A stretch of DNA of 39,541 nt from an uncultured Clostridia bacterium (GTDB lineage: Bacteria; Bacillota; Clostridia; Christensenellales; UBA1242), in the NCBI GenBank assembly GCA_946484195.1, contig CAMLSW010000006.1, positions 1-39,541 on the forward strand. The letters are read 5' to 3'. The translations under genes were made by a program, and so were the position numbers. The notes beneath the pieces are model-generated. The model ran no database searches and had not been told where the DNA came from. It worked only from the letters and a program-made list of their open reading frames with translations. Below, piece by piece: positions 1 through 39,541 of this stretch (its first letter is position 1; the number at the start of each line of letters is the position of its first letter).

Positions 1-103
1 TAATTTTGCTAAACGCAAAAACACAATAAATTGTGTTCATCACATAGTATGAAAACCCCTCAGCCTCACCCTTGCAAGCAAGTTCGGCTTCCGATGATAT
101 AGA
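1..103 (-). repeat. Cloverleaf-like intergenic repeat, copy A (module a + module x), truncated by window start
   Basis: Reverse complement reads ATCGGAAGCCGAACTTGCTTGCAAGGGTGAGGCTGAGGGG...ACTATGTGATGAACACAATTTATTGTGTTTTTGCGTTTAGCAAAATTA, matching copies G, K and L. Confidence 0.9.
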
Positions 104-238
104 CAATGTGATGCTAAAATTTCATTAGTATGAAATTTTATAAATTCTAACGAATTTGCGTGCTTCGCCCGCCTATCACATAGTATATATAACCATCAGC
201 CTCACCCTTGCAAGCAAGTTCGGCTTCCGGTTATATAA
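104..238 (-). repeat. Intergenic repeat, copy B (module a + module y), in tandem with copy A
   Basis: Reverse complement: CCGGAAGCCGAACTTGCTTGCAAGGGTGAGGCTGATGG...ACTATGTGATAGGCGGGCGAAGCACGCAAATTCGTTAGAATTT...AGCATCACATTGTC. Confidence 0.9.
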
Positions 239-547
239 ATGTCCTCTCCTTTCAATCAATAAGTAATTTAAAGTTTTTTCGTTAAAAATAAAAACTCGGA
301 TGTTTGCTTTTAAATTTTTATGTAAAAATAATTGAAGGTTTTAAACAAATTTTTTATCAATATTTTAGTTTTTTATTACTAAAAGTATTTTTTTGATGGA
401 AAAATTTAATTTTTTACTATTTTTCTTCTAAATTTATTAAAAAATACTTAAAATTTTGTTTTATTTGTGTTATTATATATATAGACTAAAGGCTTTATCT
501 ATATATCTTTATATTTGTTAAGATTTTTTATGGAAAAGCCTATATTA

Positions 548-3168: not shown

Positions 3169-3900
3169 TATATAAGAATATAAAAGCATCTTCATTTCAA
3201 GACAAAGACAACAATATTTAAAAACAGAAGAATAATATAATAAATTAAACCATAGCAATAATTAGTTATATCAAAAAACCAACTCGCTGACAACACTATG
3301 ATTGAATGGACAACAATAACTTAAGCATCACGAAGTTTTTAAAATAGTACAAATTTTAAAAAGTCACAATTTACAATAAAATTTAATTTTAGCAAAGGTC
3401 AGATTATGCTCATAAAGTAGTTTTAAAGAAATAAAATCAATTAAACTAAGTCTGCGCCTTGTTTGTTTCATATTATTTTTTTATAAAACTTTCAGAATAT
3501 TAAACAGTAGATAATAATTTTTTATTTTATACAAATAATTTGCTACAGCAAAAACATTTCAAAAAATTCAAAACCTGAATGAATGCTTGAATTTTTTAAA
3601 AACGCATCATAGTATAATCAATAATAAACTATAAAGTATATAAATTGAAACTTGAATATATACGCAAGCTTTTTAAAGATAATTTTTAAATGCTTTAATT
3701 GATCACTTAGAAATTTATTTTAAAACAAATCAGTTTGGAAAATTTGCACAGTATACGTAGAAAATAATTAGCTAATCAAACATTTTTATAATATTTTCTA
3801 ATTTTGCCTTTAAAACAAAAACTTATTTTAAAAAAATCAATAAGTGCATAAGTTAAATATTATATTTTAAACTGAATTAGTATATACTAATAACAAAAAT

Positions 3901-3916
3901 TGTTTCACGTGAAACA
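3901..3916. promoter_or_regulatory. parS: parS site 1
   Basis: Exact TGTTTCACGTGAAACA, the established bacterial parS consensus. Confidence 0.97.
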
Positions 3917-3941
3917 AAGAATAGTTTGATTGTGTGTAGAA

Positions 3942-3957
3942 TGTTTCACGTGAAACA
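3942..3957. promoter_or_regulatory. parS: parS site 2
   Basis: Exact TGTTTCACGTGAAACA, 41 bp from site 1 start to start. Confidence 0.97.
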
Positions 3958-4350
3958 ATTATAGCTATAGTTAAGATTAGGGAATTTGCGTGAACCATTA
4001 TAACACTCTTTAATTATAGCCGATACAGAAATAAATATATGCTGAAGCAAATACAAAGGTGAATTCAAAATGTGCAGTATACATTGTCAGTTGCAACAAG
4101 GTAAAACAAGAATAAATATCAAAAATCATTGTGATTGTCTTATAAAATAAACTTGTTATTGATAAATGTTTTAATAATAAGGGAGAATAATAGGCGTAAA
4201 CATATATTGTTAAAATAAATTGTGCTGAATTGCATTTTAATGACAATGTTAGTAAAATAACGCTGTGCGTCCGTAATATTTATAAAATATTAAGGGTTTT
4301 ATATGAATATGGGGTTAGTCAGTTTAAGAGAGTTATAATTGTTTTCGAAA

Positions 4351-4366
4351 TGTTTCACGTGAAACA
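4351..4366. promoter_or_regulatory. parS: parS site 3
   Basis: Exact TGTTTCACGTGAAACA. Confidence 0.97.
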
Positions 4367-4631
4367 ATATTAAAATATATGTAAAGATGGGATATATAAA
4401 ACTATGTTTTTCAATAATGGATAGAAACATTTGTACAAAATAATTATTATTAATTTTTTACTCGTTTTCTTTGATTTATTTAGTGAAAACGTAGAAGATA
4501 ATGTAAAAATCATTATAGCGCATTATTGTTTTAAATTAAATAACGTTAAATGACTTATAATTTTAATAATTAACTAGAGAGTAGTAGAAATCAATTTTGA
4601 AAATTAGGAAAACAAAAAGTTTAAAAATATT

Positions 4632-5312: not shown

Positions 5313-5770
5313 TATATGAATTTTCTTGCGCTATTTGTTTTGTATAATATAATAAGAGGATGACTTTGTAAACATAAACTATAATTTTAATTAAATCTGA
5401 ATGTCAGTAGAATGGATGTAATTTTAAATGTGTGAGGTTAAATATAATAAAACTACTTTTAAGATAAGAACTTAAATTTAATATTGTTGAAATTAAATTT
5501 GCTTGCCTAATTAAACTGAAAATAGTTTTTTTATAAAAATCAAAAAATACAGAACATTATTGGTTGTAATGATGCTTAATTGACATTATTTTTTTAACAA
5601 ACAACTAAAAGAAAGATATTAAAATATATATCATCTTAAGAAACTTGCTTGTGAAAAATCACGCTTAAAAAGAGTAGTATTCAAAAGTTAGTTAGAAATT
5701 GAAGATATCGCAATGTGGTTTCTAAATTTGACTGTGTTTTGAAAAGTAAATTGTAAATTTTGATGCAAAC

Positions 5771-5893
5771 CTTGTATCCTAATTTGCTCGCAAGGGTGAG
5801 ACAGAGTTCTTTTTACTATATGATGAAATTTATAGTGTGTTTTACATTAGTAAAATTAAAATTTAAACAAGTTTAATATTATATAGTTTATAT
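5771..5893 (+). repeat. Intergenic repeat, copy F (diverged, module a-like + module x-like)
   Basis: TTTGCTCGCAAGGGTGAGACAG...ACTATATGATGA...TTAAACAAGTTTAA...TATATAGTTTATATT; directly abuts copy G. Confidence 0.6.
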
Positions 5894-6031
5894 TATCGGA
5901 AGCCGAACTTGCTTGCAAAGGTGAGGCTGAGGGTTATACATACTATGTGATGAACACAATTTATTGTGTTTTTGCGTTTAGCAAACTTAAAACTTAACTT
6001 GTTTAAGTTTTAACATCGCATTGTTTATATT
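5894..6031 (+). repeat. Intergenic repeat, copy G (module a + module x)
   Basis: Near-identical to copies A and L; TTTTAACATCGCATTGTTTATATT 3' end. Confidence 0.92.
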
Positions 6032-6180
6032 ATCGGAAGCCGAACCAAGCACAACTTTAGTTGTATTTGAGTGAGGCTGAGGGTTTTTCACACTATGTGA
6101 TGGGCGGGCAAAGTACGCAAATTCGTTAGAATTTATAAAATTTTATTATAATAAAATTTTAGCATCACATAGTTTATATT
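6032..6180 (+). repeat. Intergenic repeat, copy H (module b + module y)
   Basis: CCAAGCACAACTTTAGTTGTATTTGAGTGAGGCTGA + ACTATGTGATGGGCGGGCAAAGTACGCAAATTCGTTAGAATTTATAAAATTTTATTATAATAAAATTTTAGCATCACATAGT. Confidence 0.92.
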
Positions 6181-6320
6181 AGCGAAAGTCAAATCAAACT
6201 TAACCTTTAGTTGTATTTAAGCGAGACAGATGTTCATACACGCTATGTGATGAACGCTCAAAGCAGGCAAATTCGTTAGAATTAAAAAATTTTTATGACT
6301 ATTTTAGCATAAATTAGTTA
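6181..6320 (+). repeat. Intergenic repeat, copy I (module b + module y, diverged)
   Basis: AAAGTCAAATCAAACTTAACCTTTAGTTGTATTTAAGCGAGAC...GCTATGTGATGAACGCTCAAAGCAGGCAAATTCGTTAGAATT. Confidence 0.75.
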
Positions 6321-8229: not shown

Positions 8230-8393
8230 ATACTATGTGATGTTACTATGTGATGTTAAAATTTAAACAAGTTAAATTTTAAATTTACTAACGCAAAAAC
8301 ACAATAAATTGTGTTCATCACATAGTATGTAAAACCCTCAGCCTCACCCAAATACAACTAAAGTTGTGCTTGGTTCGGCTTCCGATAATATAA
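8230..8393 (-). repeat. Intergenic repeat, copy J (module b + module x)
   Basis: Reverse complement: ATCGGAAGCCGAACCAAGCACAACTTTAGTTGTATTTGGGTGAGGCTGAGGG...ACTATGTGATGAACACAATTTATTGTG...AAAATTTAACTTGTTTAAATTTTAACATCACATAGT; outer-stem segment TACTATGTGATGT duplicated in tandem. Confidence 0.9.
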
Positions 8394-12812: not shown

Positions 12813-15800
12813 ATGTTAAGAAAATGTCTAAAAGGTTTTTATTGCGTGGCGCTTTTGCTGTTAGCTATAGGGCTAATTTTATTTGTGCCGGGAGTGAAGA
12901 GGTCACAACTCGCACAGGCAGAGACGATGTCCACAGGTGATGACAGCCTATCACAATTATCTGGCGATGCGTGGATGGATGCGGACGTCATAACTCAGGT
13001 GACGAGTGATGACATTATGTTTATCAATGGGAATATCTCTCCAGAGGGAGATTACTATTATATTAAAACTGCGCTAGGGTTAGCGTCAGTAGCACACCAC
13101 GTCAATAATGGAGATAGAGATTATCTTTCAGGGGTGTTTCTTTTAGGTAACGACATTGATCTTCAAGGCGCCATTTGGACGCCTATTGGTACAGCAGAAC
13201 ACCCATTTAGTGGAGTCTTTGATGGAAACGGTCACAAAATATCAAATGTTGTTGTGCAGTCGGTGGGAGTACCTTCTGGGAGTGGTCAAGGGCTTTTTGG
13301 AAATATAAATAACGCGATCATCTCCGATTTGATTTTGGATGGAACCTATTCTATTTCAGAACCAACAGGTGGTACACTCGTTGGAGTTGCTACAAATAGT
13401 ATGATAGTTTCTGTACACGATAATGCTCTTGATGATGTTGGTGGGAACTCTTCAATGCAACAAATCTATACAATTGGAAGTAATTCTTCTAATGTTCAAG
13501 TGTTTTTGTCAACCGCAACTCTAGTGAGAAATTTATACTCCTACGATCCAGTGACGTCAGATGTTGTGTTTCAATATTATGTCACTGATTTAGGGACGCT
13601 TGGGAAAGTGGATAGCCAGGCAAACATAAATTTTGCTGGTTACGCTGTATATTATTTAGCTGTTAATAATACACCAACGGGAGAACCTACATATAAATAT
13701 GTTAACAATGAATTAACAAATTATTTTATTGTTTTAGTTGACAGTGATTTTGATGATTTTTCTGGTTCTCTTACATTACAAAACTCTGTATATAAAGCTA
13801 ATACCTACCCTAGTGGGTATATGAGTTTAATGATGAGAAAAAATGCTATATATTTTACACATAAACCTAAACTTCGTGAACAACTGTCTCCTACTGATAC
13901 TGAAGTCCCATATGTAATAGCGAGAGGGTACAAGGTGACTATAGAAACACCTTCAGTTGATGATTGTTATTGTGAAATAAATCTCGCGGAAGCGTATGAG
14001 ACGACAATTAACTTTAATTACAATTACGGAAATAGAATTTATCGGGCTGTTGGGTATTATTACGACTATGCCCTAGACGATATTTTTGGAGGGAATGCAT
14101 ACCTAACAGATAGACTTGGGTTTACCCTTAAATCTATTAGCACTCAGTCAAAGGGAGATATATCGCAATCACCAAGTTTTTACTATAACTATCCAAGCTA
14201 TCCAAGTGATACAGTAAATTTTGAGTGGGCTCCACTTAATGATAGGGCCTTTGATTTCTATTTTCTTGTTGATAGCGAAAGTTACGCAAACGGAAGTTTG
14301 ACTTATGCGGATGTAAGTTCAGCTATAGGTGGCGTTAGTGTAAACAAGGGGTCGCTTGACACAAACCTTGTTGCAACAAATGGCAGATATACCGTTAAAG
14401 GGCTTACTTCTGACGACAACAACTTGTCAAATGAGGTCACCTTAACCTTTACCATAGACGCAGGCTATGAAATAGCCGTTGTGGGTGAAAATGGAGTTCA
14501 AGAGAGCCTTGTTATAAATGAAGATGATATAAATAACGGCTTTGATGGAAACAGCAACTATGTTTACAGCAAGACGAGCGGAATTTATCTTAACTTTACA
14601 AATTTTACAGGCGAGGGTTCAAGTTACAACTCTGCTAATGCCAATAATGACAGTTATTGCCAGGTTAGCGCAAGTGGAAGCGTAAGAAATACAAGCGGAA
14701 GCGGGGTTGTAAGCAGTCGCGAAGAGCGAACTTACAGCGTAACGATATCAAATATTGCTGGCACAACAGGCAATGTCTACATTGTTGTCAAGAGAGCGGC
14801 TCAAGAGATAAATGTTGTAACCTCAGTTTACGCATTTGAGGACGCAGACCTTGACAGCTTTGCTTATATCTATGGCGGTGTTGAATATCGAGAAAATTCT
14901 TTCTATATCAAGGGTGGTATAGGTCAGACCGTTGAGATAACCTTGAGAATTGACGATGATGTCAACTACTTTGTGCTTAGCTCCAACACAGGCACAAGTT
15001 CACTTACCGCAACACAGGTGCCAGTTGATGGTGGTAGACAAATGACGGTCAACGGGCGTACCTATTATTCCTATGTGACCTTTAGAATTACCATAAATAA
15101 CCTTGAAGAGGGTATGACCTTTAATGTCGGTATCGGTGGACTTCGCTCATACTTTAAGTTTGAAGTTCAAGACGGGGAAGGCAATATTTTGACTCCTAGT
15201 GATGTTGACAATTCGACAAAGGGAATATCGGCGGTTGTAAACGATATTGACGGCGTCGGTTTGAATGGTACGGGACTTCTTGAAGTGAGAGGCATTGAAG
15301 GGGTGCTAGCTGACTATGTCGGCATTGTTACAAACGGCTATTATACGCCAACTCATATAACGATAAATCATAATGGTCAAGGCAATGTTATAACAAATGC
15401 CGTGCTTGAATTTAACGAGATGACTGGCAGATATGAATGGGGAGCAACTTCGCCGGCGCAAAATGTCTTTAATCAGATTTATCAGGGCGGTCAAGATGTC
15501 GACTTTATCATAACTATTACGGTGGCACAGACCGAGTACAAGCTTGGCTGGGAAAACTTTACCTTCAACATCTCAAACGGGGAGTCGGTGACGAGGTATA
15601 CAGGACGCGACAACTTAGATTTCCTTGACGACCTATTCTCGCTCAGCTTTACCTCAAATGCCTTTGTTCCAGGGCAGAGCGGAAGGGTGACCTTGACGCT
15701 TACCGACCTAGGACTTGCTCTTCTCTATGGTGACACTGACAGCTTTAATGCAAGCAGTATAAACGGCTTTGATGACACGGTCAATGACGGCTATCTTGCA

Positions 15801-18800
15801 ACCACTATTGACAGCGTCGATGTGACAAATGTAAACACTGGCGTTTGGGCATTTGACTTCACAAGCGGAACCTTTGATTTTGACTTTAATTTTGACTTTA
15901 CTTATAAAGAGGTTACAATAAACGCAAACGGGCTTGTCCTTAACGGCTCTTATGCACCAATAGACGTGACAGAGGATTTGTTTATAGGAAATAGCGGAAG
16001 TTTTAGATATAACTATACAATCTCAGACGGGCAAGGGCAGGTTAGCCTTGCAAATGCAGGTTTTGGTGGAATACAAATTCACACTCAGTATTATAACCTT
16101 GGCTGGTACCTCAAAAATGGCGAGGTGGTGACGATTGCAAATGGCAATTATAACGATATCGTCACAAATGCCAACTTGCTTTCGGCATATCAAGACTTTT
16201 CAAGGACTAGCAACGCCTCAAACTTTGCTGTCAACGTTCAAGCAATCGTCTCGCCAAGAACAGTTACCCTTAATTATGATGGTGGCAACGCTCAAAAAGG
16301 TCAGCTTATCGAAGTTGATTTGACAAGCGACACTATCACCTACTCAAACGGGGTGACTTTAAAGCAGGCGTACAGAAACAAGGGTTACACCTTTGCAAAT
16401 TATAGCTATACAATCGGCACAACTAATTTTACGGCAAACGCAGGAGCAAACTTTGTTATCACAGGACTCAACTTTGCAAACCTCTTCGGCAGTGGCAGTT
16501 TGCTTCAAACTTGGACGAGCTTTGTCGATGAGAGCGCGCTTGCAACCTCATCTGCGACAAATTTGACGCTCGTTTCTAATTGGAATGTTATCAAATACAA
16601 CCTCATTATCGATGGAACTACTGTTCAGTCAGCGCTTGAAATTGGCGATGAGATACGCTTTATCGCAAATGACCCAAGCCTTAAAAACGGGCAGGGTGTA
16701 TACCACATATTTAGAGAGGGCATTGAGGTTGCCTCGTACAATGGCGGAGTGCTTGGCGGATACACTGCGGGCGGTTTTGAACTTAGCCTTGAGGGCAGAC
16801 TTTCAGCAAATATTGACGGCGACTACGCCTCAATCTTGTTTGACGGAAATAACTTTGACACCCTCATTGGCACAAATTATGACACCCTTCGCAGTATCAC
16901 TGCATCAACGCTTAGAGCAGCCTCAAGCTATAAGGTTTACATAGAAAGCTCTCAGTATTTTGATGTCACTGTAAGTGGCAGTGGTAGCAATTTCGGTCAA
17001 GATGAGAACGGTGTTTACGTTGTTGTAACCTATAACGCTCTTCCAAGCGTGCTTGACAAGAACAGTGAGGACTTTCTTTTTAACACCTCATCTATAACAG
17101 GCAAGAACATCACGATTACTCGCGTTGGATACAACTTTGAAGGCGACTTTTACAACTTTGACCCTACTGAAATTTTTGATAACCTAACAGATATTACAAT
17201 CAGCCCTATCTTTACAAAATCTAATGTCTCGGCAGGCGAGGCAACTATTGCGTTTAGTGATGACTCGACGGGCGCAAACTTCTTCCTTCTAAATAGCCAC
17301 GATATCACAATCGGTTCGCTTATAGATTTTGCCAACCTTGAAGACGATAGCGATGACATTACAATCTCACTTACCGAAGATGTAATTATGCTTTCAAATG
17401 GCGACCAGGTGAGCGGATATGGCTTTGCGCTTGTAAAAGATGGGCAAACAACATACTATGAAGGCAATACCTTTAATATCAACAATATTTATGAGGATGG
17501 ACTATATTCAATTTACTTCTATATAGACCTCATAGACACCTTGCACAACTCAAGTGAAAATTATAGCTATAGACTTGGCTCATCAAGCCTCACTTTCACA
17601 ATGAACAAAAATGCCTTTGGCTTTGATAGCAATTTTGTATCGGCATACAACGGCACAAGCGAGTTTGTTCCAACCCTTTCAAGCGAAGGTTATAGCAATG
17701 TAAACGACTACGGCAATGTTTACCTTGTGTACGGCTTTGATGGCGAGGCAAGCGAAGAGGAGAGAGTGACCTTTAACACTGACGACTTCTTTAGAAGTTA
17801 TGTGCTGTCAGGTGGCGACTACAATGTTGGCGAAGATAAAGATTTAATTCTCACTATTGACAGCGGTTACTTCACTCAAGTTACAAATATTGGCGGAGTT
17901 GCAGTCAACTCTTCAACCAACTTTGCAAACCTTATCAGCGGAGTTGTGGTAAATGGCAGTGATTACACCTACACTCTTGAGGATGGAGCGACTATTGTTA
18001 GGGCTAGGTTTATAATCAGCTTTGGCAACACCTCAACCTATTACTTTGACGGCGTAACACTGATTGTCTACACTCACGATGGCAACAATAGAACCTTCCA
18101 AATAGGAAGAGAGTATTTTAGCTACAACCTTTCGCGCATTGTCTATACTGGCGATGCGGTTGACAGCGATACCACCTTCACAGGCGCAAATAGAGGGGTG
18201 TTTGCTGTTGAGGGCCTGACAATTGACGGACAGGCGTATGATGGCAATAAAGATAGCAGTTTTGAGTATGTCCTTGATGGTCAATTTAGACTACTTAGCT
18301 CTGCTAGTGCAATTAAAAATTACTACTCAACAAGATATTTGACTGCAACGAACGGAGTGCTTAACGACGCCCTTCTTCAAGACTATAGCGGGCTTGTAGA
18401 TGGACTTTATTTGACAGGTGTCTATGTAGACGGCGGCGAAGTCATAGTTACAGGCAGTCAATTTACCTATGATATTGACGACAACGTCATCTTTAGCGTT
18501 GTAAATAACGACACAGAAAACCTTCAAATCTTTGTGAATAGAGAGATGCTAACCTCTCACACACTTAGCTATAGCGTTGCAGTTTCATTGACAAATGAAA
18601 GGCTCAGCCACTTGACACTTCTCACTTTTGGCACTTCTCCAAATGGCAGAGACTATGACGAGATGTTAAGTTCAGATTTCTCTGACCCAGGCTCAAACGC
18701 CGACCCTTATCAAGTGTTTACAATGGCGACAGATTCTCAAGATAGCAACCTCTATGCAATCTTGACTGATGTACGCAAACTTTCATTTAATTATAACGGC

Positions 18801-21800
18801 GGACATAACGCTAGCGGGCAATCAAGTGAAATCATTTATCTATCTTATTCTAGCGCAGGTGGAGAGTATATTTTAGACAATCCAAGCTATGACTATAGCG
18901 GACTTACTTTCAATGGTTACTTCTACTCTGCAAATGGTCTTACCGCTGAGCAGAGCGGTGAGGACGCCTATAGGTTTGTCTCACTCGATGGTGGCTCGCA
19001 AGTAGAACTCATTGCGCTTTGGGAGCTTACCGGCGTAGATTACAGCCTTGTCAGTGATAGTCTCGACCTCAAAGCAAGCCTTAGCTCACAAGAGATTGAA
19101 GCTACAAGCTTTGTATCACCTAAGGCGCTCACTGGTGGAAGCTATAACTTCACCTTAACTAAAAAAGATGACCCTAGTGTGAGTTTTAGCTCTAGCGATA
19201 GCTTTACTTTTGCAGATTCGACGGGCAGAGTTCCAACCTCGCTTGGAGGTGAATATATCCTTACTATCACTTTGACTTTTACAAATGCCTACCAAGCAGG
19301 GCAGACCATAAGCCAAGATGTTGATGTGACTATAAATATAGAGGAAAGCACCATAGGCATAGTAGGACAGAACGTTTTAACCTTCAATAATGCCGACCGC
19401 AAGAGTGATATAACACTGCAAATAAGATTGAATGGTACGCCTTCCCCTCAAATGACACTTACAAGCCTTTTACAAACAGGTCTTGCAAGCTATGGCGTTG
19501 ATGTGACGATTTCACCAAATAATGAGATTAGAAATGCAGGGCAATACACTGTATCACTCTCAATCAATAGCGCATATGCAGAGTTCTTTGAGATTGAAAA
19601 TGGCTTTGGACAGATGCAGGTTACTATCAATAAATTTGACTTGACGCTCGCTGACTATGCAAGTCAAATTGAGGTTTATAAATTCTTTGGGCAAAGTGAC
19701 CCAAATCCTATAAGAGATACCATAACAATATCTCTTGTAAATACAGACAGCGTTGAGCTTAACTTTACAAGGCAGGCAGGCGAGTCGATTGGTAACCACC
19801 TTCTTCTTACCGCCACCTTGACAGACCCAACAGATATAAACAACTACAATCTCATTACCGATGGCTTTGTTGCTTACTTTGTAATCCGAGTGCCAGACAA
19901 TGGCTTGTTTGTAAGACTTGATGGCAATCTAACCTACACCTACAATGGCGAGGCGTTAACCTCACTTAGCACAAGGTATAACAGCGATACTCAAAAGTTT
20001 GAAGTATACGGCTTTGAAGGAAGCGAGCAGGTTAGTCAATCGTTTAGCCTTTACTACCTAAGTGATGGCGAAGAGATTGAGGTTCCTATTTCAGAAAGAG
20101 AAACCTATGCTAGATATATCACCTTTAACTCATCTTCTGCAGGCAAAAATGTAGGCACCTATGAGTTTAGCGTAAGCTTGTCAAGCGAAGGACAAAGCGC
20201 TGGCTGGAGCGAAGCTAATATTGACACAAATTCAATAGCGCAAGATTACAACACTATCACAGTTACCAAGAGGACGATTACCTTAAACGCTATTAGCAAG
20301 ACTTTTGACCAATCAAACGCCTTCACCTTTAGTATGTTTGCTCAAAATAGCGGTGTAAGCGCTGATATATTAAACTATGTAGAAGGCGACAACATTATCA
20401 TAAACGGCGTAGCGGATAGCGAACTTGCAGGGCGAAGGGATATTGAAGAGATTGCCCTAGATAGCTTAAGCGATGCAAATTACATCTTAGAGCTTGCAAG
20501 CGGACTTCAAATTTTGATATTGCCGTCGATAGAAACAGTTGATGTAGTCACCAATATCACTTCTATAGAATACGGTTCACTTAGACAAGATGATGTGCTA
20601 ACAATAATCTTGACAGAATTCCCGCTTGTATTCAATGGTGGCGATATTAATTCAAGCTATCTTAATGTGGCAGGTTATCAATTTGTTTCACCATCCTTCT
20701 CAACAGGTGGCTACCTTGAGGTAGGCTCTAATGCAATCACAATCACCCTAACTTCAATAAACTACACCTTTGGCGGAGATGTCTTAGATGAAGGGCAGGT
20801 TTATCAGACAACTGTAACAATTTCTTTTGAGGTTACAAAGCTTGATATAACGATAAACAACTCTGAAGTTCAAATAACAAAAGAATATGACAGCACTAGC
20901 GAGATTGGCGAAGATAACCTTAATCAAGTTGTCAACGGACAGACAAGCCCATACCTATCTGACGGACTTTTAAGCGGTGATGTCATCCGTATTATAGGCG
21001 GGCAGTATTACGATAGCACGGTCGGCAACAATAAGAAAATTATATCACTTGTATTTGACAGCACTCTTGATGACTCAAACAACTATACAATAACCTATCC
21101 AGTCTTGGTAGGTTCTATAACAAACCATATTATAACCTTCAATGTAAATGCAACTACCGAGCATATCGACCTCGTCACTGACGGCGCCTTCGTTGAGGAT
21201 GGACTCAGCCCACTTGTGCAAGAGACTTTCTTTACTTTTGAATATCCAAATGTGCTTACAGGGCTTGAGCTATTGTCACAGATGGAGCTTCCTACAAGAA
21301 CAGGCTACACCGCATCTGGCTGGGCATATATGGAGGACGGCGAGTATATACCTATAACTGTCGACAACATACAGACGCTTATCAGAGAGGTTGCCTTAGA
21401 TGAGGCTAACATCGATGAGACGATAACCATCTATGTTATCTGGCAAATAGATAACTATCAAATCACAGTTTTAGGTGAGGGCGTTGAAAGCTATGAAGTG
21501 ACCGGGCAATATTATAATAACCTTTCAGAGAGCGCAAGATACTTTAGCGACATTGAAATAAACTTTACTATATCAAAAGGCTATAAGATAGCAAGATATG
21601 AGGTTAATGGTAGATATTCAAGAGCTGTACTTGACGATGTTGGCGGGTCTAATGGTAGCGCTCAAGTTTATGGCGTTGGCTCTGACCTTGAAATTACAGC
21701 TTTTACAAGCGAGATTGAGGTCACCTTTGATATTGACACAAACATCCCAGATTACACCTCACGCACCGATTCAAATAGGACATATTTCACTTACGACTAC

Positions 21801-24800
21801 TCAGCTATTGCAAATATTTATGTGGATGACCTTCCAGCCTTCAGCGTAACTGCAGGCACATATACACTTGCAGGCTTTAGCTATAGCGGTGGAGATATCG
21901 GCGCGCTTTCACTTAAAGAGGTGGTAGATAACCTCTATCCAAATCTTGACGAAGATGTCAGTGTTGACCTTACGGCAAACTGGGCAGGTGTACAGTATGT
22001 TGTCACCTTCAATCCTGCAGGAGGCACGCTCACGGGCGATAGCAATCAAAACGTGACCTATGGAAGGGCCTTTACAAGTCCTCTTCCTCTTGCAACCTTG
22101 CCAGGTCGCAGTGGTGTTTGGACTGATGCAAACGGCGTAACCTATACAGATGGAAGCGTTTTCCACACAATCGGAACACTGATTGGCGGGGTATGGAATG
22201 CAAGTTTAGTTGCCGAATATCAGAACAATACCTACACTCTAACCGTGCAGTTTGACAATAGACTTCAAGTTTTCTATAACGGAAGCCGAATCGCAAGTGG
22301 AGAGACATTTGACATAACCTATGATACAACTAATATCACTTTCGATATAACACCATTACAAGGCTATAGCTATGATATTGACACTGCTAGCCTTAATGGA
22401 AACGTAACAGAAAGCGCAAACTCTGTTTCTGTTTACAACCTCACGGATGATGGTGTTCTCAATATTGTTACAGTGCTTGGCACAAACAGAATGACCATTG
22501 CCGGCTATAATATAGATGGCTACAGCGTGACCATCGATGATGTTGTGCAACCGACAACCTCGGTATACAACGTGCTTACCGAAAGCATCGTTGAAATCAC
22601 CTTCACAGCAAGTTTTGGCTATGAGTTTGATGAGAGCTCTCTAAGCCACACGACGACAAATTCAACTATTGATATCGAGATATCACTAGATAAAAAGACT
22701 ATGATTGTCACTTGGAGCAACTTTACCTCTGACATAACCTTTACGGTTGAGGCAAATCCAACGCTCAACACAGTGACCTATAATGATGTAAGTTCAATCT
22801 TTACAAGTCTTCAGTTTAACGGCGAAAGCGTAGCCCTTAACGGCGGAACGTACGGAGTTTACACTGGAGAAGACCTTGTAATCACGGCGTCACTTAGATA
22901 TGGCTATTGCGATGGCAATGTGAGCGCAAGCATTGAGTCTTTCTTGACAAGTGTACAATGTAACTATCTAAGGGCTGACGGACTTTATCACCTTGATGCA
23001 AGCTTAAATGATATAAACGAAAGCTTTAGTCTAACCTTTACCGCCACCGAGCGAAGCTATAACTTTGTAATAGCTGTTGAGAGTGGTAGTGAGGAGTTTG
23101 GACAAATTACCGTACCACAAAGTCAAACGGTTAAATTTGGACAGAGCCTGCAACTTGGTGTAACCCTATTAAGAGAAGATTATATCTTCTATGGCTGGGA
23201 ATTTGACGGCGATATCATCTCTAGAGAAGAAAACACAAGCATAGAACTTACTTCTTCGCTTAGACAGATGCTTGAAAGCGTAACGCCAGGGCAGAGCATA
23301 ACCATCTATGCAACCTTCATTGATAGAGTGACTAGCATATCCTTCACCGCTGGCAATCACGGACAGATAATCTTCTACCAAGAGGACAGCACTCAAACAA
23401 CAGTCAATGGTGGACGCACTGAAATCGGGCAAGTGAGATATGGCTATGACCTTATCATTGACATATTGCCAGACGAGGGCTACAGACTTGACCAAATTTT
23501 AGTTGACGGACAGCCTACTACAGAAGGCTACGACCAAGAAAACTCTAGATTTACTGTTTATCTTGATGTAGTTGAGAGTATATCAACTATTGAGATAACC
23601 TTCACTGCCGAAGAAATCACTGTAAATGTTCAGACAGTTGTACAGCGCAATTATGAGTTTATCTATGGTGATCCAACGGGGGGATTAATCTATCTTGTAG
23701 ACTATGAAGGTACAAGGCTTGGCGACGAATATTACATCTGCTCAAGCGATAAACTTTACTATGATTATAGTGCAAATTCAGTGACATACGGAACGCTCTA
23801 CTTTACCTTAGAAATAGAGAGCGGTTACAATGCTATTATAAATTCAACGACGCCGGGAGTCATTGTAAGCGAGTACAATGCAAATGGCATTAGAATATGG
23901 GCGGTAAGCGGACTTAGTCAAGGTGCAAACATACAAGCAATATTTATCCCTGTTGAAAATAATATCGAGGTTAGGTTTGTAACTGCCGACACCACAACCG
24001 CACTCAGTGCAGGACGCATCAGCGTTGACACCTCATCAATAGATGTCAGAGCAAGTCAAAACAACACTTATAACACCTTTATCAGCGCAATTACAGGCGC
24101 AACAATCAATATAGATGTCTATTCTATGTTCACCTATGACCTTCTTGCCGACGAGCAAGGAAACCTAAGATACTATGTTGTTTATAGTAACGGGTCGTTT
24201 GATGAGGGAGCAGTTGTGGCAGGACTTGTTGAAGAGAGCGATATCTATTCAAACGGCTTTACAAAGCGTGCAACTCTTGAGATTACAAATGCAAATGCAA
24301 GCGCAACAATCTACATTCTTGTAGAGCCTAGAGTATACAGCCTAAACTTCTATGTGACAGAAAATCTTTCAGTTCGAATCGATAATGCATTAATCTATGG
24401 ACAGGCACTTCCTATGACAAACCTTACAGAAGAACAGCGTGCCCTTGTGTTCTCAACAAGACGTGGCTACACGCTTGGCGGTTATTATACAATGCAACTT
24501 GCAAGAGGCACTCAGTATTTAGACGGTAATGGCAACCTGCTCAAAAATTGGAGTGAGACCGGTTATAGATGGACAGGTTATGGTTATGTGCCAACCGACA
24601 ACTTCGATGAAGACACTCAGACCTTCACCATATACGCCGCTTGGGTATATGATAGGGCGTCTATCAATCTTAATTTCCTGCCAGTTGGTTTCTATTCAAA
24701 CTTTGAAAACTTCAATATCACCGACTTTATAACAAATATTGGAAGCGATTATTGGATGAATCAAACTGACAAGTGGTATGTCGAGGTGCCGGCAGGAGTA

Positions 24801-26345
24801 AACCTTCACTTTGAGGCAATTCCAGTTGAAGGCTATCAGTTTATAAATTTCCTTGTTTCTATTGATAATGGAGAGACAGTGGCGTATAAAAGCGGTTTTG
24901 ACCTTGAGTATAGCGTCGGTTCATATAGCGTCACAGCGGTATATCAGCCAATTCTCACCTTGAGCAGCACCGAGGGCGGAAGCGCTCAAGGCTATCAAAG
25001 TGGAAGTTTGGTAGAAGGCTCCTTCTCGCCTGATATTCCACTTACGCTTAGAGCGACGGCAGAGGAAGGATACAACTTCTTGTACTTCTTAAACACGGCA
25101 ACAAATGAAAGGTATTATGCACAGTTTGATAACGCAAGCGGAAGCTATAGCTATACTTTTGCTGATTTGATATCTACTCCACTTAGCATCAGGGCGGTAT
25201 TTGAAGGCAAACCAATTACCATAAATATTGACTTTACAGATGCCTCGGGCATACATAGAATCCTCAATGTTTACCTTGATGGCAGAGCGGTAAGTTATTC
25301 TGGTCAAATTCTTGCAAATGTTGGACAGAGTCTTGTAATCGTCATTGAAAGAGAGTACGGCTATGCTATCACAGTAAATGGTGGTATCTATAGCGAGAGT
25401 GTAGATAATAACGGCTATTATAGATATACCTTTGCGCTTACTGCAGACGGACTTGTTGAGGACGGCGAAAGCTATGTGCTTGACATCGATATTGGCGCAA
25501 TCCGAGAGAATGTCAACCTCATCTTTGATATGCAGGTTGAAGACGAGGTAAGTGATAATGAAATCTTGCGTGCAGGCGCATTAAGCTTTGTAGACGCAAA
25601 CGGCAAAACATACAATGTCAGCGCTGGCTCTAGCTATCAAATCTTATATGGGCAAAGCGTCAGCCTAAGGGCGTACGTGCTTGCAAACTACCAAATCACC
25701 GACGTTTTACTTGATTATGATGGCGAGCCAGTAAGTTTGATGAGTTATCTTTTGGACAACACGCTTATCATCAATGAGTCCTTCCTAAATCGCTATCAGG
25801 CATATAACCTCAAGATAACAGTTGTCTACTCAAGACTTTTGTGGACCGATGAAGAAGTTTTATCGGGATATATTGAAGGCACAAGCAGACTTCTTGGCAG
25901 TGGAACATCAAACAATCCTTATTATATAAGAAGTGCACAAGAACTTGCCTTTGTTGCATATGCTGTCAACAATGGACTAACTAATAGTGATGACATCCTC
26001 TATAGTGAGGCGTACTATCAGATAGTTGCCGACATCAGCCTTAGTGGAAGGTTCTGGGAGCCTATCGGTGTTCCAGACAGTCCTTTCAATGGCACGATGG
26101 ACCTTGGCGAATATGTAATATCGGGCTTGAGTCTCTACAGAAGTTATCCAGCGCCAGAGCTATCTCATAGTGGCTTATTCTGGTGTCTTGGCGATAATGC
26201 AAGGATAATTAAAGATACAAACACCTTGACGATTGTGCTTTGGATAATTTTCGCTCTCATTATACTTGCGATTATCATAGCAATCATCGTCTACTTCTAT
26301 AGAAGATACAAGAGAAGAAAGATGAACGATATAGCAAATAACTAA
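12813..26345 (+). CDS. Giant (4510 aa) secreted, membrane-anchored surface protein with InlB/Listeria-Bacteroides-type and MBG-like beta repeats
   Basis: N-terminal signal/TM segment; repeated YNGG...GY.F.GW/AxW-type units (LNYDGGNAQKG, VTFNPAGGTLTGDS, FNYNGGHNASG); MBG-like YNGEAL/TVTKRTITL segments; C-terminal TM (IIFALIILAIIIAIIVYFY) plus RRYKRRK. Confidence 0.93.
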   Translation: MLRKCLKGFYCVALLLLAIGLILFVPGVKRSQLAQAETMSTGDDSLSQLSGDAWMDADVITQVTSDDIMFINGNISPEGDYYYIKTALGLASVAHHVNNGDRDYLSGVFLLGNDIDLQGAIWTPIGTAEHPFSGVFDGNGHKISNVVVQSVGVPSGSGQGLFGNINNAIISDLILDGTYSISEPTGGTLVGVATNSMIVSVHDNALDDVGGNSSMQQIYTIGSNSSNVQVFLSTATLVRNLYSYDPVTSDVVFQYYVTDLGTLGKVDSQANINFAGYAVYYLAVNNTPTGEPTYKYVNNELTNYFIVLVDSDFDDFSGSLTLQNSVYKANTYPSGYMSLMMRKNAIYFTHKPKLREQLSPTDTEVPYVIARGYKVTIETPSVDDCYCEINLAEAYETTINFNYNYGNRIYRAVGYYYDYALDDIFGGNAYLTDRLGFTLKSISTQSKGDISQSPSFYYNYPSYPSDTVNFEWAPLNDRAFDFYFLVDSESYANGSLTYADVSSAIGGVSVNKGSLDTNLVATNGRYTVKGLTSDDNNLSNEVTLTFTIDAGYEIAVVGENGVQESLVINEDDINNGFDGNSNYVYSKTSGIYLNFTNFTGEGSSYNSANANNDSYCQVSASGSVRNTSGSGVVSSREERTYSVTISNIAGTTGNVYIVVKRAAQEINVVTSVYAFEDADLDSFAYIYGGVEYRENSFYIKGGIGQTVEITLRIDDDVNYFVLSSNTGTSSLTATQVPVDGGRQMTVNGRTYYSYVTFRITINNLEEGMTFNVGIGGLRSYFKFEVQDGEGNILTPSDVDNSTKGISAVVNDIDGVGLNGTGLLEVRGIEGVLADYVGIVTNGYYTPTHITINHNGQGNVITNAVLEFNEMTGRYEWGATSPAQNVFNQIYQGGQDVDFIITITVAQTEYKLGWENFTFNISNGESVTRYTGRDNLDFLDDLFSLSFTSNAFVPGQSGRVTLTLTDLGLALLYGDTDSFNASSINGFDDTVNDGYLATTIDSVDVTNVNTGVWAFDFTSGTFDFDFNFDFTYKEVTINANGLVLNGSYAPIDVTEDLFIGNSGSFRYNYTISDGQGQVSLANAGFGGIQIHTQYYNLGWYLKNGEVVTIANGNYNDIVTNANLLSAYQDFSRTSNASNFAVNVQAIVSPRTVTLNYDGGNAQKGQLIEVDLTSDTITYSNGVTLKQAYRNKGYTFANYSYTIGTTNFTANAGANFVITGLNFANLFGSGSLLQTWTSFVDESALATSSATNLTLVSNWNVIKYNLIIDGTTVQSALEIGDEIRFIANDPSLKNGQGVYHIFREGIEVASYNGGVLGGYTAGGFELSLEGRLSANIDGDYASILFDGNNFDTLIGTNYDTLRSITASTLRAASSYKVYIESSQYFDVTVSGSGSNFGQDENGVYVVVTYNALPSVLDKNSEDFLFNTSSITGKNITITRVGYNFEGDFYNFDPTEIFDNLTDITISPIFTKSNVSAGEATIAFSDDSTGANFFLLNSHDITIGSLIDFANLEDDSDDITISLTEDVIMLSNGDQVSGYGFALVKDGQTTYYEGNTFNINNIYEDGLYSIYFYIDLIDTLHNSSENYSYRLGSSSLTFTMNKNAFGFDSNFVSAYNGTSEFVPTLSSEGYSNVNDYGNVYLVYGFDGEASEEERVTFNTDDFFRSYVLSGGDYNVGEDKDLILTIDSGYFTQVTNIGGVAVNSSTNFANLISGVVVNGSDYTYTLEDGATIVRARFIISFGNTSTYYFDGVTLIVYTHDGNNRTFQIGREYFSYNLSRIVYTGDAVDSDTTFTGANRGVFAVEGLTIDGQAYDGNKDSSFEYVLDGQFRLLSSASAIKNYYSTRYLTATNGVLNDALLQDYSGLVDGLYLTGVYVDGGEVIVTGSQFTYDIDDNVIFSVVNNDTENLQIFVNREMLTSHTLSYSVAVSLTNERLSHLTLLTFGTSPNGRDYDEMLSSDFSDPGSNADPYQVFTMATDSQDSNLYAILTDVRKLSFNYNGGHNASGQSSEIIYLSYSSAGGEYILDNPSYDYSGLTFNGYFYSANGLTAEQSGEDAYRFVSLDGGSQVELIALWELTGVDYSLVSDSLDLKASLSSQEIEATSFVSPKALTGGSYNFTLTKKDDPSVSFSSSDSFTFADSTGRVPTSLGGEYILTITLTFTNAYQAGQTISQDVDVTINIEESTIGIVGQNVLTFNNADRKSDITLQIRLNGTPSPQMTLTSLLQTGLASYGVDVTISPNNEIRNAGQYTVSLSINSAYAEFFEIENGFGQMQVTINKFDLTLADYASQIEVYKFFGQSDPNPIRDTITISLVNTDSVELNFTRQAGESIGNHLLLTATLTDPTDINNYNLITDGFVAYFVIRVPDNGLFVRLDGNLTYTYNGEALTSLSTRYNSDTQKFEVYGFEGSEQVSQSFSLYYLSDGEEIEVPISERETYARYITFNSSSAGKNVGTYEFSVSLSSEGQSAGWSEANIDTNSIAQDYNTITVTKRTITLNAISKTFDQSNAFTFSMFAQNSGVSADILNYVEGDNIIINGVADSELAGRRDIEEIALDSLSDANYILELASGLQILILPSIETVDVVTNITSIEYGSLRQDDVLTIILTEFPLVFNGGDINSSYLNVAGYQFVSPSFSTGGYLEVGSNAITITLTSINYTFGGDVLDEGQVYQTTVTISFEVTKLDITINNSEVQITKEYDSTSEIGEDNLNQVVNGQTSPYLSDGLLSGDVIRIIGGQYYDSTVGNNKKIISLVFDSTLDDSNNYTITYPVLVGSITNHIITFNVNATTEHIDLVTDGAFVEDGLSPLVQETFFTFEYPNVLTGLELLSQMELPTRTGYTASGWAYMEDGEYIPITVDNIQTLIREVALDEANIDETITIYVIWQIDNYQITVLGEGVESYEVTGQYYNNLSESARYFSDIEINFTISKGYKIARYEVNGRYSRAVLDDVGGSNGSAQVYGVGSDLEITAFTSEIEVTFDIDTNIPDYTSRTDSNRTYFTYDYSAIANIYVDDLPAFSVTAGTYTLAGFSYSGGDIGALSLKEVVDNLYPNLDEDVSVDLTANWAGVQYVVTFNPAGGTLTGDSNQNVTYGRAFTSPLPLATLPGRSGVWTDANGVTYTDGSVFHTIGTLIGGVWNASLVAEYQNNTYTLTVQFDNRLQVFYNGSRIASGETFDITYDTTNITFDITPLQGYSYDIDTASLNGNVTESANSVSVYNLTDDGVLNIVTVLGTNRMTIAGYNIDGYSVTIDDVVQPTTSVYNVLTESIVEITFTASFGYEFDESSLSHTTTNSTIDIEISLDKKTMIVTWSNFTSDITFTVEANPTLNTVTYNDVSSIFTSLQFNGESVALNGGTYGVYTGEDLVITASLRYGYCDGNVSASIESFLTSVQCNYLRADGLYHLDASLNDINESFSLTFTATERSYNFVIAVESGSEEFGQITVPQSQTVKFGQSLQLGVTLLREDYIFYGWEFDGDIISREENTSIELTSSLRQMLESVTPGQSITIYATFIDRVTSISFTAGNHGQIIFYQEDSTQTTVNGGRTEIGQVRYGYDLIIDILPDEGYRLDQILVDGQPTTEGYDQENSRFTVYLDVVESISTIEITFTAEEITVNVQTVVQRNYEFIYGDPTGGLIYLVDYEGTRLGDEYYICSSDKLYYDYSANSVTYGTLYFTLEIESGYNAIINSTTPGVIVSEYNANGIRIWAVSGLSQGANIQAIFIPVENNIEVRFVTADTTTALSAGRISVDTSSIDVRASQNNTYNTFISAITGATINIDVYSMFTYDLLADEQGNLRYYVVYSNGSFDEGAVVAGLVEESDIYSNGFTKRATLEITNANASATIYILVEPRVYSLNFYVTENLSVRIDNALIYGQALPMTNLTEEQRALVFSTRRGYTLGGYYTMQLARGTQYLDGNGNLLKNWSETGYRWTGYGYVPTDNFDEDTQTFTIYAAWVYDRASINLNFLPVGFYSNFENFNITDFITNIGSDYWMNQTDKWYVEVPAGVNLHFEAIPVEGYQFINFLVSIDNGETVAYKSGFDLEYSVGSYSVTAVYQPILTLSSTEGGSAQGYQSGSLVEGSFSPDIPLTLRATAEEGYNFLYFLNTATNERYYAQFDNASGSYSYTFADLISTPLSIRAVFEGKPITINIDFTDASGIHRILNVYLDGRAVSYSGQILANVGQSLVIVIEREYGYAITVNGGIYSESVDNNGYYRYTFALTADGLVEDGESYVLDIDIGAIRENVNLIFDMQVEDEVSDNEILRAGALSFVDANGKTYNVSAGSSYQILYGQSVSLRAYVLANYQITDVLLDYDGEPVSLMSYLLDNTLIINESFLNRYQAYNLKITVVYSRLLWTDEEVLSGYIEGTSRLLGSGTSNNPYYIRSAQELAFVAYAVNNGLTNSDDILYSEAYYQIVADISLSGRFWEPIGVPDSPFNGTMDLGEYVISGLSLYRSYPAPELSHSGLFWCLGDNARIIKDTNTLTIVLWIIFALIILAIIIAIIVYFYRRYKRRKMNDIANN

Positions 26346-35850: not shown

Positions 35851-36741
35851 TTATTCAACATCAACTTCATCATTTTCGACAACGATTTTTACAGGTTTTT
35901 TAGTTTTAGCTGATGGTTTTTTAGCTGTCTTTGCTTGATTTGGATTGTTTTCGTTGTCCTTTTCTGGCTTCTTTGATGCTTTTTCAATCATATCTCGTAG
36001 TTTTCTCAAATCTGAGCTCAAATTATCTATATGAGATATCTGCACCTTAACGTCATCAATTGTAACAGTGGTTATTTTTGCTTGATCTTGTACATACTCT
36101 TTTGCGTATTCATTTATCATTTCCATAATTTCTTTGCAAAACTCAGGTCTGAACTTGCCGTATACACCTGTAAACACTATATCACAAAATCTTTTTAGGC
36201 TATAAAAATCATTAGCATTTTTGATGCGATCTTTGATAATAGGCTCGCCAACATCTGGATATTTAATTGCGAGGTATGTAAAAGCATTATAATTGCCTTT
36301 GCCTATAATTATGTAGTCTAAACGCAAATCGCAAAGTTCTTCCATAAAGCCAGGGGTACGAACAACTGACTCTGGCACAAGTTTAAAGTTTTTAGGTATG
36401 AAACGAACTGCATCTATAAGTGAATAGTCGTCACCTTCGATGGTATATAAGATATCGTCGTAAAATTTGGGGTTATCGTGAAATTGAGGGAAGAGTTTGT
36501 AAAGTTCTGGATAGTACCTTACGCATTCACTTGCATCTTTCATATTTGTCTTTAATGAAGGAAAACAATCAAGATAGCCATTATTTAAGTTGATTAAAAA
36601 TGCAACACTACTTAGTTTGCGGTAAAGGTATGGAGAAGAGGGAATCTTTTTCTTTTCTATCCACTTTTTCCCTTCTTCTAGATTATCTCTAAACCAATCA
36701 CGTTTGTATACTATTTTTTCAAAAGCCTTTTCAATTCTCAT
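35851..36741 (-). CDS. Hypothetical protein with low-complexity Lys/Asn-rich C-terminus
   Basis: 296-aa ORF with RBS; no recognised family. Confidence 0.75.
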   Translation of the reverse strand: MRIEKAFEKIVYKRDWFRDNLEEGKKWIEKKKIPSSPYLYRKLSSVAFLINLNNGYLDCFPSLKTNMKDASECVRYYPELYKLFPQFHDNPKFYDDILYTIEGDDYSLIDAVRFIPKNFKLVPESVVRTPGFMEELCDLRLDYIIIGKGNYNAFTYLAIKYPDVGEPIIKDRIKNANDFYSLKRFCDIVFTGVYGKFRPEFCKEIMEMINEYAKEYVQDQAKITTVTIDDVKVQISHIDNLSSDLRKLRDMIEKASKKPEKDNENNPNQAKTAKKPSAKTKKPVKIVVENDEVDVE

Positions 36742-36758: not shown

Positions 36759-36916
36759 TATATTATCGGAAGCCGAACCAAGCACAACTTTAGTTGTATT
36801 TGAGTGAGGCTGATGGTTTTACATACTATGTGATGAACACAATTTATTGTGTTTTTGCGTTTAGCAAAATTAAAACTTAACTTGTTTAAGTTTTAACATC
36901 ACATAGTTTATATTAT
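36759..36916 (+). repeat. Intergenic repeat, copy K (module b + module x), solitary and intact
   Basis: Bounded by direct repeats TATATTAT (36759-36766 and 36909-36916); perfect outer stem ACTATGTGATG/CATCACATAGT. Confidence 0.95.
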
Positions 36917-38472: not shown

Positions 38473-38516
38473 CCAGCCTTACGCTCGGCGCCAACCTTAG
38501 GTTGGACCATTGTCGG

Positions 38517-38940
38517 CAAACTTAGTTTGCATCAGTATCGTTTATTGTATCTTTCATTCGGTTTTACCTTGGTCCGCCCGAATTTATTAAAGAAAAAGGG
38601 TGTCAACGACACCCAATCTTAGCCAAACTTAGGTTGGACCATTATCGGCAAACTTAGTTTGCATCATTGTCGTTTATTGTGTCTTGCGTTTTGCTTTACC
38701 TTGGTCCGTCCGAGTTTGTTAAAGGAAAGAGGTGTCGACGACACCCAAACTTAGTTTGCATCAGCATCGTTTAGTGTGTCTGTTGCTTTGTGGTATTTTG
38801 GTCCGCCAAACTTAGTTTGGATCAGTATCGTTTAGTGTGTCTGTTGCTTAACTTTACCTTGGTCCGTCAAACTTAGTTTGGATCAGTATCGTTTATTGTA
38901 CCTGTTCTTTAACTGTACCTTGGTCCGTTAGAGTATATTA
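38517..38940 (+). repeat. Palindromic direct-repeat array (5 units)
   Basis: CAAACTTAGTTTG at 38517, 38649, 38746, 38807, 38868, each followed by ATCAG(T/C)ATCGTTTA(T/G)TGT..CT...ACCTTGGTCCG-like sequence; last units have period 61 bp. Confidence 0.85.
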
Positions 38941-38955
38941 AAGAAAAAATAATAA

Positions 38956-38990
38956 TAGCATCCAAGCCTAATGCTTGGTTGCTGTTTTGT
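38956..38990 (+). terminator. Terminator-like hairpin
   Basis: AGCAtCCAAGC-ctaat-GCTTGGtTGCT followed by GTTTTGTTTT. Confidence 0.65.
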
Positions 38991-39438: not shown

Positions 39439-39541
39439 TATATTATCGGAAGCCGAACTTGCTTGCAAGGGTGAGGCTGATGGTTTTACATACTATGTGA
39501 TGAACACAATTTATTGTGTTTTTGCGTTTAGCAAACTTAAA
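39439..39541 (+). repeat. Intergenic repeat, copy L (module a + module x), truncated by window end
   Basis: TATATTATCGGAAGCCGAACTTGCTTGCAAGGGTGAGGCTGATGGTTTTACATACTATGTGATGAACACAATTTATTGTGTTTTTGCGTTTAGCAAACTTAAA. Confidence 0.95.

Follow-up and report, generated by a model that had tools for sequence, protein, structure and literature searches.

The DNA analysed here, a stretch of 39,541 nucleotides referred to below as the window, carries two adjacent modules, x and y, which a preliminary description made from the letters alone proposed to encode the same three-hairpin topology in different sequences. This raises the question of whether the two modules do fold alike and, if so, what kind of element would keep a fold while its letters change.

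Two modules with one topology

The hairpins of both modules (copies G and H of the preliminary description) are real and could be located letter by letter in the window sequence:

5942-6024, plus strand: module x (copy G), outer stem 5942-5952/6014-6024 closing hairpins hp1, hp2 and hp3
5942-5952, plus strand: left arm of the outer stem of module x, ACTATGTGATG
5954-5969, plus strand: hp1 of module x, ACACAAT/ATTGTGT
5971-5985, plus strand: hp2 of module x, TTTGC/GCAAA
5989-6011, plus strand: hp3 of module x, AAAACTTAA/TTAAGTTTT
6014-6024, plus strand: right arm of module x, CATCGCATTGT
6092-6173, plus strand: module y (copy H), outer stem 6092-6102/6163-6173 closing hp1 to hp3
6104-6118, plus strand: hp1 of module y, degenerate in this copy (GCGGGC aaa GTACGC)
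6119-6134, plus strand: hp2 of module y, AAATTC/GAATTT
6137-6160, plus strand: hp3 of module y, AAAATTTTA/TAAAATTTT
6163-6173, plus strand: right arm of module y, CATCACATAGT

When segments 5940-6024 (x) and 6091-6175 (y) were folded, both gave an outer stem closing three hairpins with DNA as well as RNA parameters, so the proposed common topology was borne out. With DNA parameters the folds reached -20.7 kcal/mol for x (z -7.0, from dinucleotide shuffles) and -20.8 kcal/mol for y (z -7.5), with RNA parameters the z-scores were -5.0 and -6.6, respectively, and none of the shuffles folded as well as the originals. The reported similarity of the hp2 loops was also seen. Other details needed correction. 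The outer stem is present in both copies, but the right arm of x, CATCGCATTGT, has two mismatches relative to CATCACATAGT; a clean y hp1, GCGTGCaacGCACGC, exists in copy C near position 2597, whereas that of copy H is degenerate. The statement that x and y have no obvious sequence homology was too strong, as the modules are partly homologous through hp3 (AAAATTT...AAATTTTAACATCACATAG) and chimaeras of the two exist.

The modules belong to a longer mobile unit

Each module is the 3' part of a longer unit with a hairpin, the head, at its 5' side. In the window, modules x and y are contained in two complete units within an array at 5765-6320:

5765-5892, plus strand: remnant of an x-type unit, decayed, on the 5' side of the array (sequence; partial blastn match 5814-5896)
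5893-6029, plus strand: complete unit a-x with module x, TTATCGG ... CATCGCATTGT TTATA (boundaries from empty sites and flank statistics)
5897-5934, plus strand: head hairpin type a of this unit, with an AGCC/GGCT helix, G-A mismatch loops and a CTTG tetraloop hairpin
6030-6178, plus strand: complete unit b-y with module y, head-to-tail directly after unit a-x
6034-6086, plus strand: head hairpin type b of this unit (sequence and folding)
6179-6320, plus strand: decayed third unit, y-type (sequence; partial blastn match 6175-6255)

Further copies were found elsewhere in the window:

103-239, minus strand: unit a-y; the next unit on that strand is an a-x truncated by the contig end
2524-2952, plus strand: array of b-y, decayed b-x and decayed a-y (sequence and blastn)
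8245-8392, minus strand: unit b-x (sequence and blastn), with an additional outer arm copy at 8232-8242
36763-36912, plus strand: solo unit b-x, flanked by a minus-strand ORF (35851-36741) and tilS
39443-39541, plus strand: unit a-x truncated by the contig end (sequence and blastn)

From the alignment of all copies, the layout of the unit is TTATCGGAAGCCGAAC, then head a (TTGCTTGCAAGG) or head b (CAAGCACAACTTTAGTTGTATTTGA), then GTGAGGCTGATGG...ACTATGTGATG, then x or y, then CATCACATAGTYTATA. The unit starts with TTATCGG and is about 137 bp long with head a and 150 bp with head b. Heads and modules were combined freely among the 131 parsed copies (a-y 51, a-x 44, b-x 15 and b-y 11), and five chimaeras carried hp1 and hp2 of y with hp3 of x (loci include L053, L055, L079 and L088). 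Short units of 62 bp, consisting of head plus tail, occur in tandem in one genome. Head a (window 5908-5916) and hp3 of x (5996-6006) have the motif AACTTG in common (AACTTGCTT in some species), and in some copies both show a switch from CTTG to CTCG. In IS605 elements the left and right hairpins can likewise have a common loop motif.

Allowing one mismatch, the window has 18 copies of the outer arm ACTATGTGATG, against 0.6 expected and a maximum of three in 100 shuffles. The 1.34-Mb genome has 64 exact copies of the arm, and a 171-bp query gave 62 blastn matches in it, many of them at contig ends. At window 8232-8255, where the minus-strand unit has its 3' end, the arm is tandemly duplicated. 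By blastn the family was detected in 12 of 37 genomes of the same genus and not in the 24 other genera sampled. When a genome collection was scanned, copies came from about 25 metagenome-assembled genomes labelled uncultured Clostridia, Firmicutes or Christensenella, along with a few matches in unrelated organisms that were judged to be chance, and the phage and plasmid collections gave no match.

Both neighbours are known for 56 arrays; 50 of these did not overlap an ORF of at least 70 amino acids, and no orientation relative to genes dominated among the 56. A cis-regulatory role was considered and rejected, since neither orientation nor distance to genes is fixed. No gene-carrying (autonomous) copy was found when far-apart heads and tails were scanned in the collected loci and four genomes.

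Both ends of the contig (window 1-105 and 39443-39541) lie inside x/y units, like many other contig ends of this genome. As so many contig ends fall within the repeat, x/y repeats break this assembly and others of the genus, which is a caution for annotators. The window is probably near the replication origin, because it contains, at 3900-4370 and 606-2388, ParA and ParB genes and then at least three TGTTTCACGTGAAACA-like parS sites. Two other features of the window are a single ORF of 4510 amino acids at 12813-26345 with a GC content of 0.42, compared with about 0.29 nearby, and a separate repeat array downstream of tilS (38490-38960), the units of which are built around GGTTGGACCATTGTCGGCAAACTTAGTTTGCATCAG and have no visible relation to the x/y units.

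Helices are maintained by compensatory change

Covariation was analysed in sets of 50 (x) and 51 (y) distinct copies, using FastTree trees, parsimony states and an R-scape-like script of our own with a tree-based null (not R-scape itself), and was significant for some of the pairs. The proposed pairs were standard in 98% of cases for x (50 copies) and 96% for y (51 copies), and most were invariant across copies. Where pairs did change, double changes that kept the pair were mapped 8 times on the x tree and 14 times on the y tree, compared with means of 0.30 and 0.61 and maxima of 4 and 6 when partners were shuffled. The structure-restricted E-values were 1.1e-5 for hp3 of x, 2.3e-4 and 2.1e-3 for hp1 of y, and 6e-3 for the exchange between heads a and b; RNAalifold, run on two alignments of 20 sequences, detected 5 and 8 pairs with double changes. 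The helices of the unit are therefore kept by compensatory change. The outer stem is conserved in the same 50 x and 51 y copies but without significant covariation; the evidence for its pairing is conservation, folding and the relatives beside tRNA-Val genes described below.

Insertion is precise and occurs 3' of NATA

Two clean orthologous empty sites were obtained. The first, AATTATA/AAAAGG, lies in genome G032 and corresponds to the element at locus L030, with a difference of one A in a homopolymer; the second, AGTGAATA/ATATATGC, lies in G000:C10 and corresponds to the element at L064. In a third pair (L074 and G000:C75) the right boundary agrees and the left flank has diverged. Left flanks end in NATA. 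A left flank of AATA, GATA or CATA faces TATA at the right boundary in 14 cases, and AATA or CATA there in one case each. Since the right-hand TATA persists when the left flank differs, the TATA that often brackets the unit is mostly no target duplication: the left base is supplied by the target and the right TATA by the element. The empty sites and the flank pairing together define an element that starts with TTATCGG, ends with YTATA and inserts 3' of NATA. Its ends, TTATCGG and CATAGTYTATA, are not complementary to each other, and insertion is precise, without target duplication or terminal inverted repeats.

Each end has a palindrome nearby: the head hairpin is separated from the left end by 7 nt, and hp3 from the right end by about 18 nt. 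Compensatory changes are present in both hairpins. Right flanks additionally favour TTAT after TATA, which may reflect decayed neighbouring copies. At orthologous positions of close genomes different units can be present, such as a-x (L118) and b-y.b-y (L041), or a-x.a-y (L094) and b-y (L036).

The MITE explanation, in which the unit is the remnant of a DDE transposon and its hairpins are functionless by-products of inverted duplications, fits short, AT-rich, intergenic sequences with many copies, but it is very improbable and largely refuted by ends that are not inverted repeats, by empty sites without target duplication (the two hallmarks of classical MITEs, both absent here) and by internal hairpins kept through compensatory changes, which are not expected of by-products.

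Relatives beside tRNA-Val genes

A covariance model built from y was searched over 151 genomes of the order, representing 91 genera. Matches were found in seven of the genomes, all of the same genus, and none in the other 90 genera. Some of the matches had an unrelated module sequence. Of 30 genomes selected mostly for lacking the blastn family, 14 contained a 20-nt core of the head, GAACTTGCTYGCAAGNGTGA; the match in G024 (L208), inside a gene, looks like chance. In eight genomes (G003, G005, G016, G021, G026, G033, G071 and G165; loci L227-L233 and L207) the units lie directly 3' of tRNA-Val(TAC), mostly as arrays, and in seven of the eight species an rRNA operon ends a few kilobases away.

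In the tRNA-Val units the outer stem, CTCCCACCA/TGGTGGGAG, pairs the 3' end of the tRNA itself with a complementary arm, and the last letters of each unit, TGGTGGGAGTTATA, are complementary to that 3' end. In all seven species with arms that could be matched by pattern, the tRNA-Val segment folds into exactly three hairpins, and the three of these folds that were compared with shuffles gave z-scores from -6.1 to -10.2. The claim of one topology in different sequences can therefore be extended beyond x and y, to units of unrelated sequence in seven species. The hp3 of these relatives resembles a bidirectional terminator, and in G026 the tRNA 3' end recurs beside a terminator-like hairpin at the far end of the array.

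Units with the head core also recur beside TTATCCACA, a DnaA-box-like sequence, in three genomes (L234:3451-3900, L236 and L204); with the arm pattern used, only the G071 unit at this site gave three hairpins. In G005 the same site has a tandem period of 114 bp. At L238, L239 and L242, head-core units adjoin tRNA-Arg or carry tRNA-like fragments (T-arm TTCGAACCC and its complement).

The location of these relatives bears on an explanation by integron-like or other integrase-driven cassettes, where a tyrosine recombinase would act on folded or double-stranded sites with a TATA-centred crossover, and the tRNA-Val arrays would be the original site, each unit restoring the tRNA 3' end. The units 3' of tRNA-Val(TAC) in eight genomes, with their TGGTGGGAGTTATA ends, fit this explanation, and the far-end copy in G026 is what would be left after integration into a tRNA 3' end. 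A shape kept without sequence conservation, in head-to-tail arrays, also recalls attC cassettes (PMC2727003), and NATA on the left with TATA on the right is compatible with any single crossover to the right of N. However, no integrase gene was noticed within the units, the main family occupies many sites with only ATA(TT) in common, and a single hairpin with extrahelical bases of the attC kind was not recognised. We regard this as a less likely account of the units than the reading favoured below.

DNA or RNA

The folds could also have been selected in transcripts, as a tRNA tail, a terminator-like structure or an RNA that is reverse transcribed, with mobility of the DNA being secondary. The solo b-x unit as a whole folds strongly as RNA (-48.6 kcal/mol, z -7.1; z -7.2 with DNA parameters), the RNA fold including GA/GA internal loops in the head. 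A CUUG tetraloop is another feature of the head, and the hp3 of the tRNA-Val relatives looks like a tRNA terminator. Against this, Rfam 15 at gathering and relaxed thresholds returned no family at the units and only rRNA or tRNA matches in related loci, and the units follow no orientation rule relative to genes. G-U changes were not favoured over A-C changes: counted as G-T and A-C they were 33 to 27 (p = 0.52), which gives no strand bias by wobble, and GC skew gave no significant bias either (26 units against 16 on the G-rich strand). A hammerhead-like reading of CTGATG was rejected by eye, as the order of motifs does not fit.

The loops fit DNA tetraloops better than GNRA. The hp2 loops of y are c(GNNA)g in 49 of 52 copies, and the RNA-favoured GNRA in only 11; the loops of head a are g(CTTG)c or g(CTCG)c, and those of head b include c(GAA)g. 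Both d(cGNNAg) and d(gCNNGc) are named as stable DNA tetraloop motifs in the title of a 2002 paper by Nakano et al. (cited in PMC6811676), so the loop motifs lean towards DNA rather than RNA. Selection as a structured RNA appears unlikely.

A unit that may be recognised by its shape

The reading we favour, held at about an even balance of belief and doubt, treats x and y as alternative inner modules of a single non-autonomous mobile element, which would work like a PATE (palindrome-associated transposable element) and be moved as folded single-stranded DNA. Mobility is supported by the copy number, the arrays and the many contig ends inside the repeat. As the folded shape stays even when the sequence changes completely, it is suggested that the enzyme recognises the unit by shape. 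One strand could fold while it is single-stranded during replication or repair, and a transposase or recombinase acting in trans would then recognise, mostly from their shape, both the head hairpin and the junction of three hairpins. This enzyme would join the ends at the TATA junction and reinsert the single strand 3' of another NATA, in a peel-and-paste manner similar to HUH/Y1 enzymes. Head-to-tail arrays would be a consequence of the 3' TATA of each copy being itself a target for the next copy, and if shape rather than sequence is read, hairpins could be exchanged (x for y, a for b) or diverge fully, as in the tRNA-Val relatives.

The single-stranded reading has its own difficulties, as the TTAT preference of right flanks is not predicted by an IS200-type mechanism, there is no significant strand bias, no gene-carrying copy was found, the clean empty sites number only two, and the tRNA-Val relatives look just as much like insertions by an integrase. 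Y1_Tnp (PF01797) was not found in G000, nor in the carriers G028, G029 (98% complete), G007, G030 and G061. It is present in 5 of 41 genomes of the genus as ordinary IS200 copies with ends unrelated to the unit, and was rejected as the resident mobiliser. These IS200 loci (L147-L152, in G025, G063, G032 with one TAA inside, G008 and G022) have hairpin ends of their own.

A bolder possibility, which we offer tentatively and consider rather unlikely, is a new class of mobile DNA. Its recombinase, of no family yet linked to such elements, would read by shape a four-way junction (one stem and exactly three hairpins) together with a conserved head hairpin. The ancestral form would reside at tRNA-Val, each unit building its outer stem from the tRNA 3' end and restoring it, and a derived form would have left it for NATA sites in general and become dispersed across the genome. 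The tRNA-Val arrays suggest how a site-specific element might have become a dispersed one. Together, x, y and the seven tRNA-Val relatives with unrelated letters are a clear natural case of a conserved topology with free sequence, and if a shape-reading enzyme moves the unit, that enzyme would represent a new single-strand recombinase whose target, NATA, is very short.

Comparison with known systems

BOX elements of pneumococcus (boxA-boxB-boxC) are, like the unit, modular and strongly folded interspersed repeats of a low-GC Gram-positive organism (PMC3049150). However, BOX has terminal inverted repeats and target duplications (PMC3049150) and the unit has neither; modules are here exchanged, not repeated within one unit, and no sequence relation was seen.

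Integron attC sites are also recognised by their folded shape with almost no sequence conservation, and they too form head-to-tail arrays (PMC2727003). Membership of this group is defined by an integron integrase and a GTT/AAC-bounded single hairpin with extrahelical bases. The unit folds into a four-way junction, carries no cassette gene and is dispersed 3' of NATA, and no integron integrase or attI was seen.

REP/BIME sequences, with their RAYT (TnpA-REP), share with the unit the intergenic location, the palindromic repeats, the mosaics and the tandem copies, and an HUH enzyme is presumed to move them in the form of single-stranded hairpins (PMC8266576, PMC3733652). The present units differ in their length of about 137-150 bp, their multi-branch fold and their direct rather than alternating orientation in arrays. 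The GTAG or CGTC tag of REP was not seen in the aligned copies, and the family to which RAYTs belong (PF01797) is absent from several carriers.

Also close to the unit are the PATEs of Haloquadratum, which are non-autonomous relatives of IS200/IS605 (PMC3119063). Both have palindromes near the ends without terminal inverted repeats or target duplication, are too short for a transposase, insert beside a conserved targeting oligonucleotide and have short versions made of the termini only (PMC3119063), and the features of IS200/IS605 elements in PMC7290912 are in line with these PATE-like traits. An IS605-type element with ends matching the unit was not found (Y1 is present in 5 of 41 genus genomes, always as IS200); as its ends match no resident transposon of this type, the unit is not filed as a PATE, only as working like one. 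It differs from PATEs in having two ends of different structure, a conserved internal three-hairpin junction, exchange of a with b and of x with y, head-to-tail arrays and relatives at tRNA-Val.
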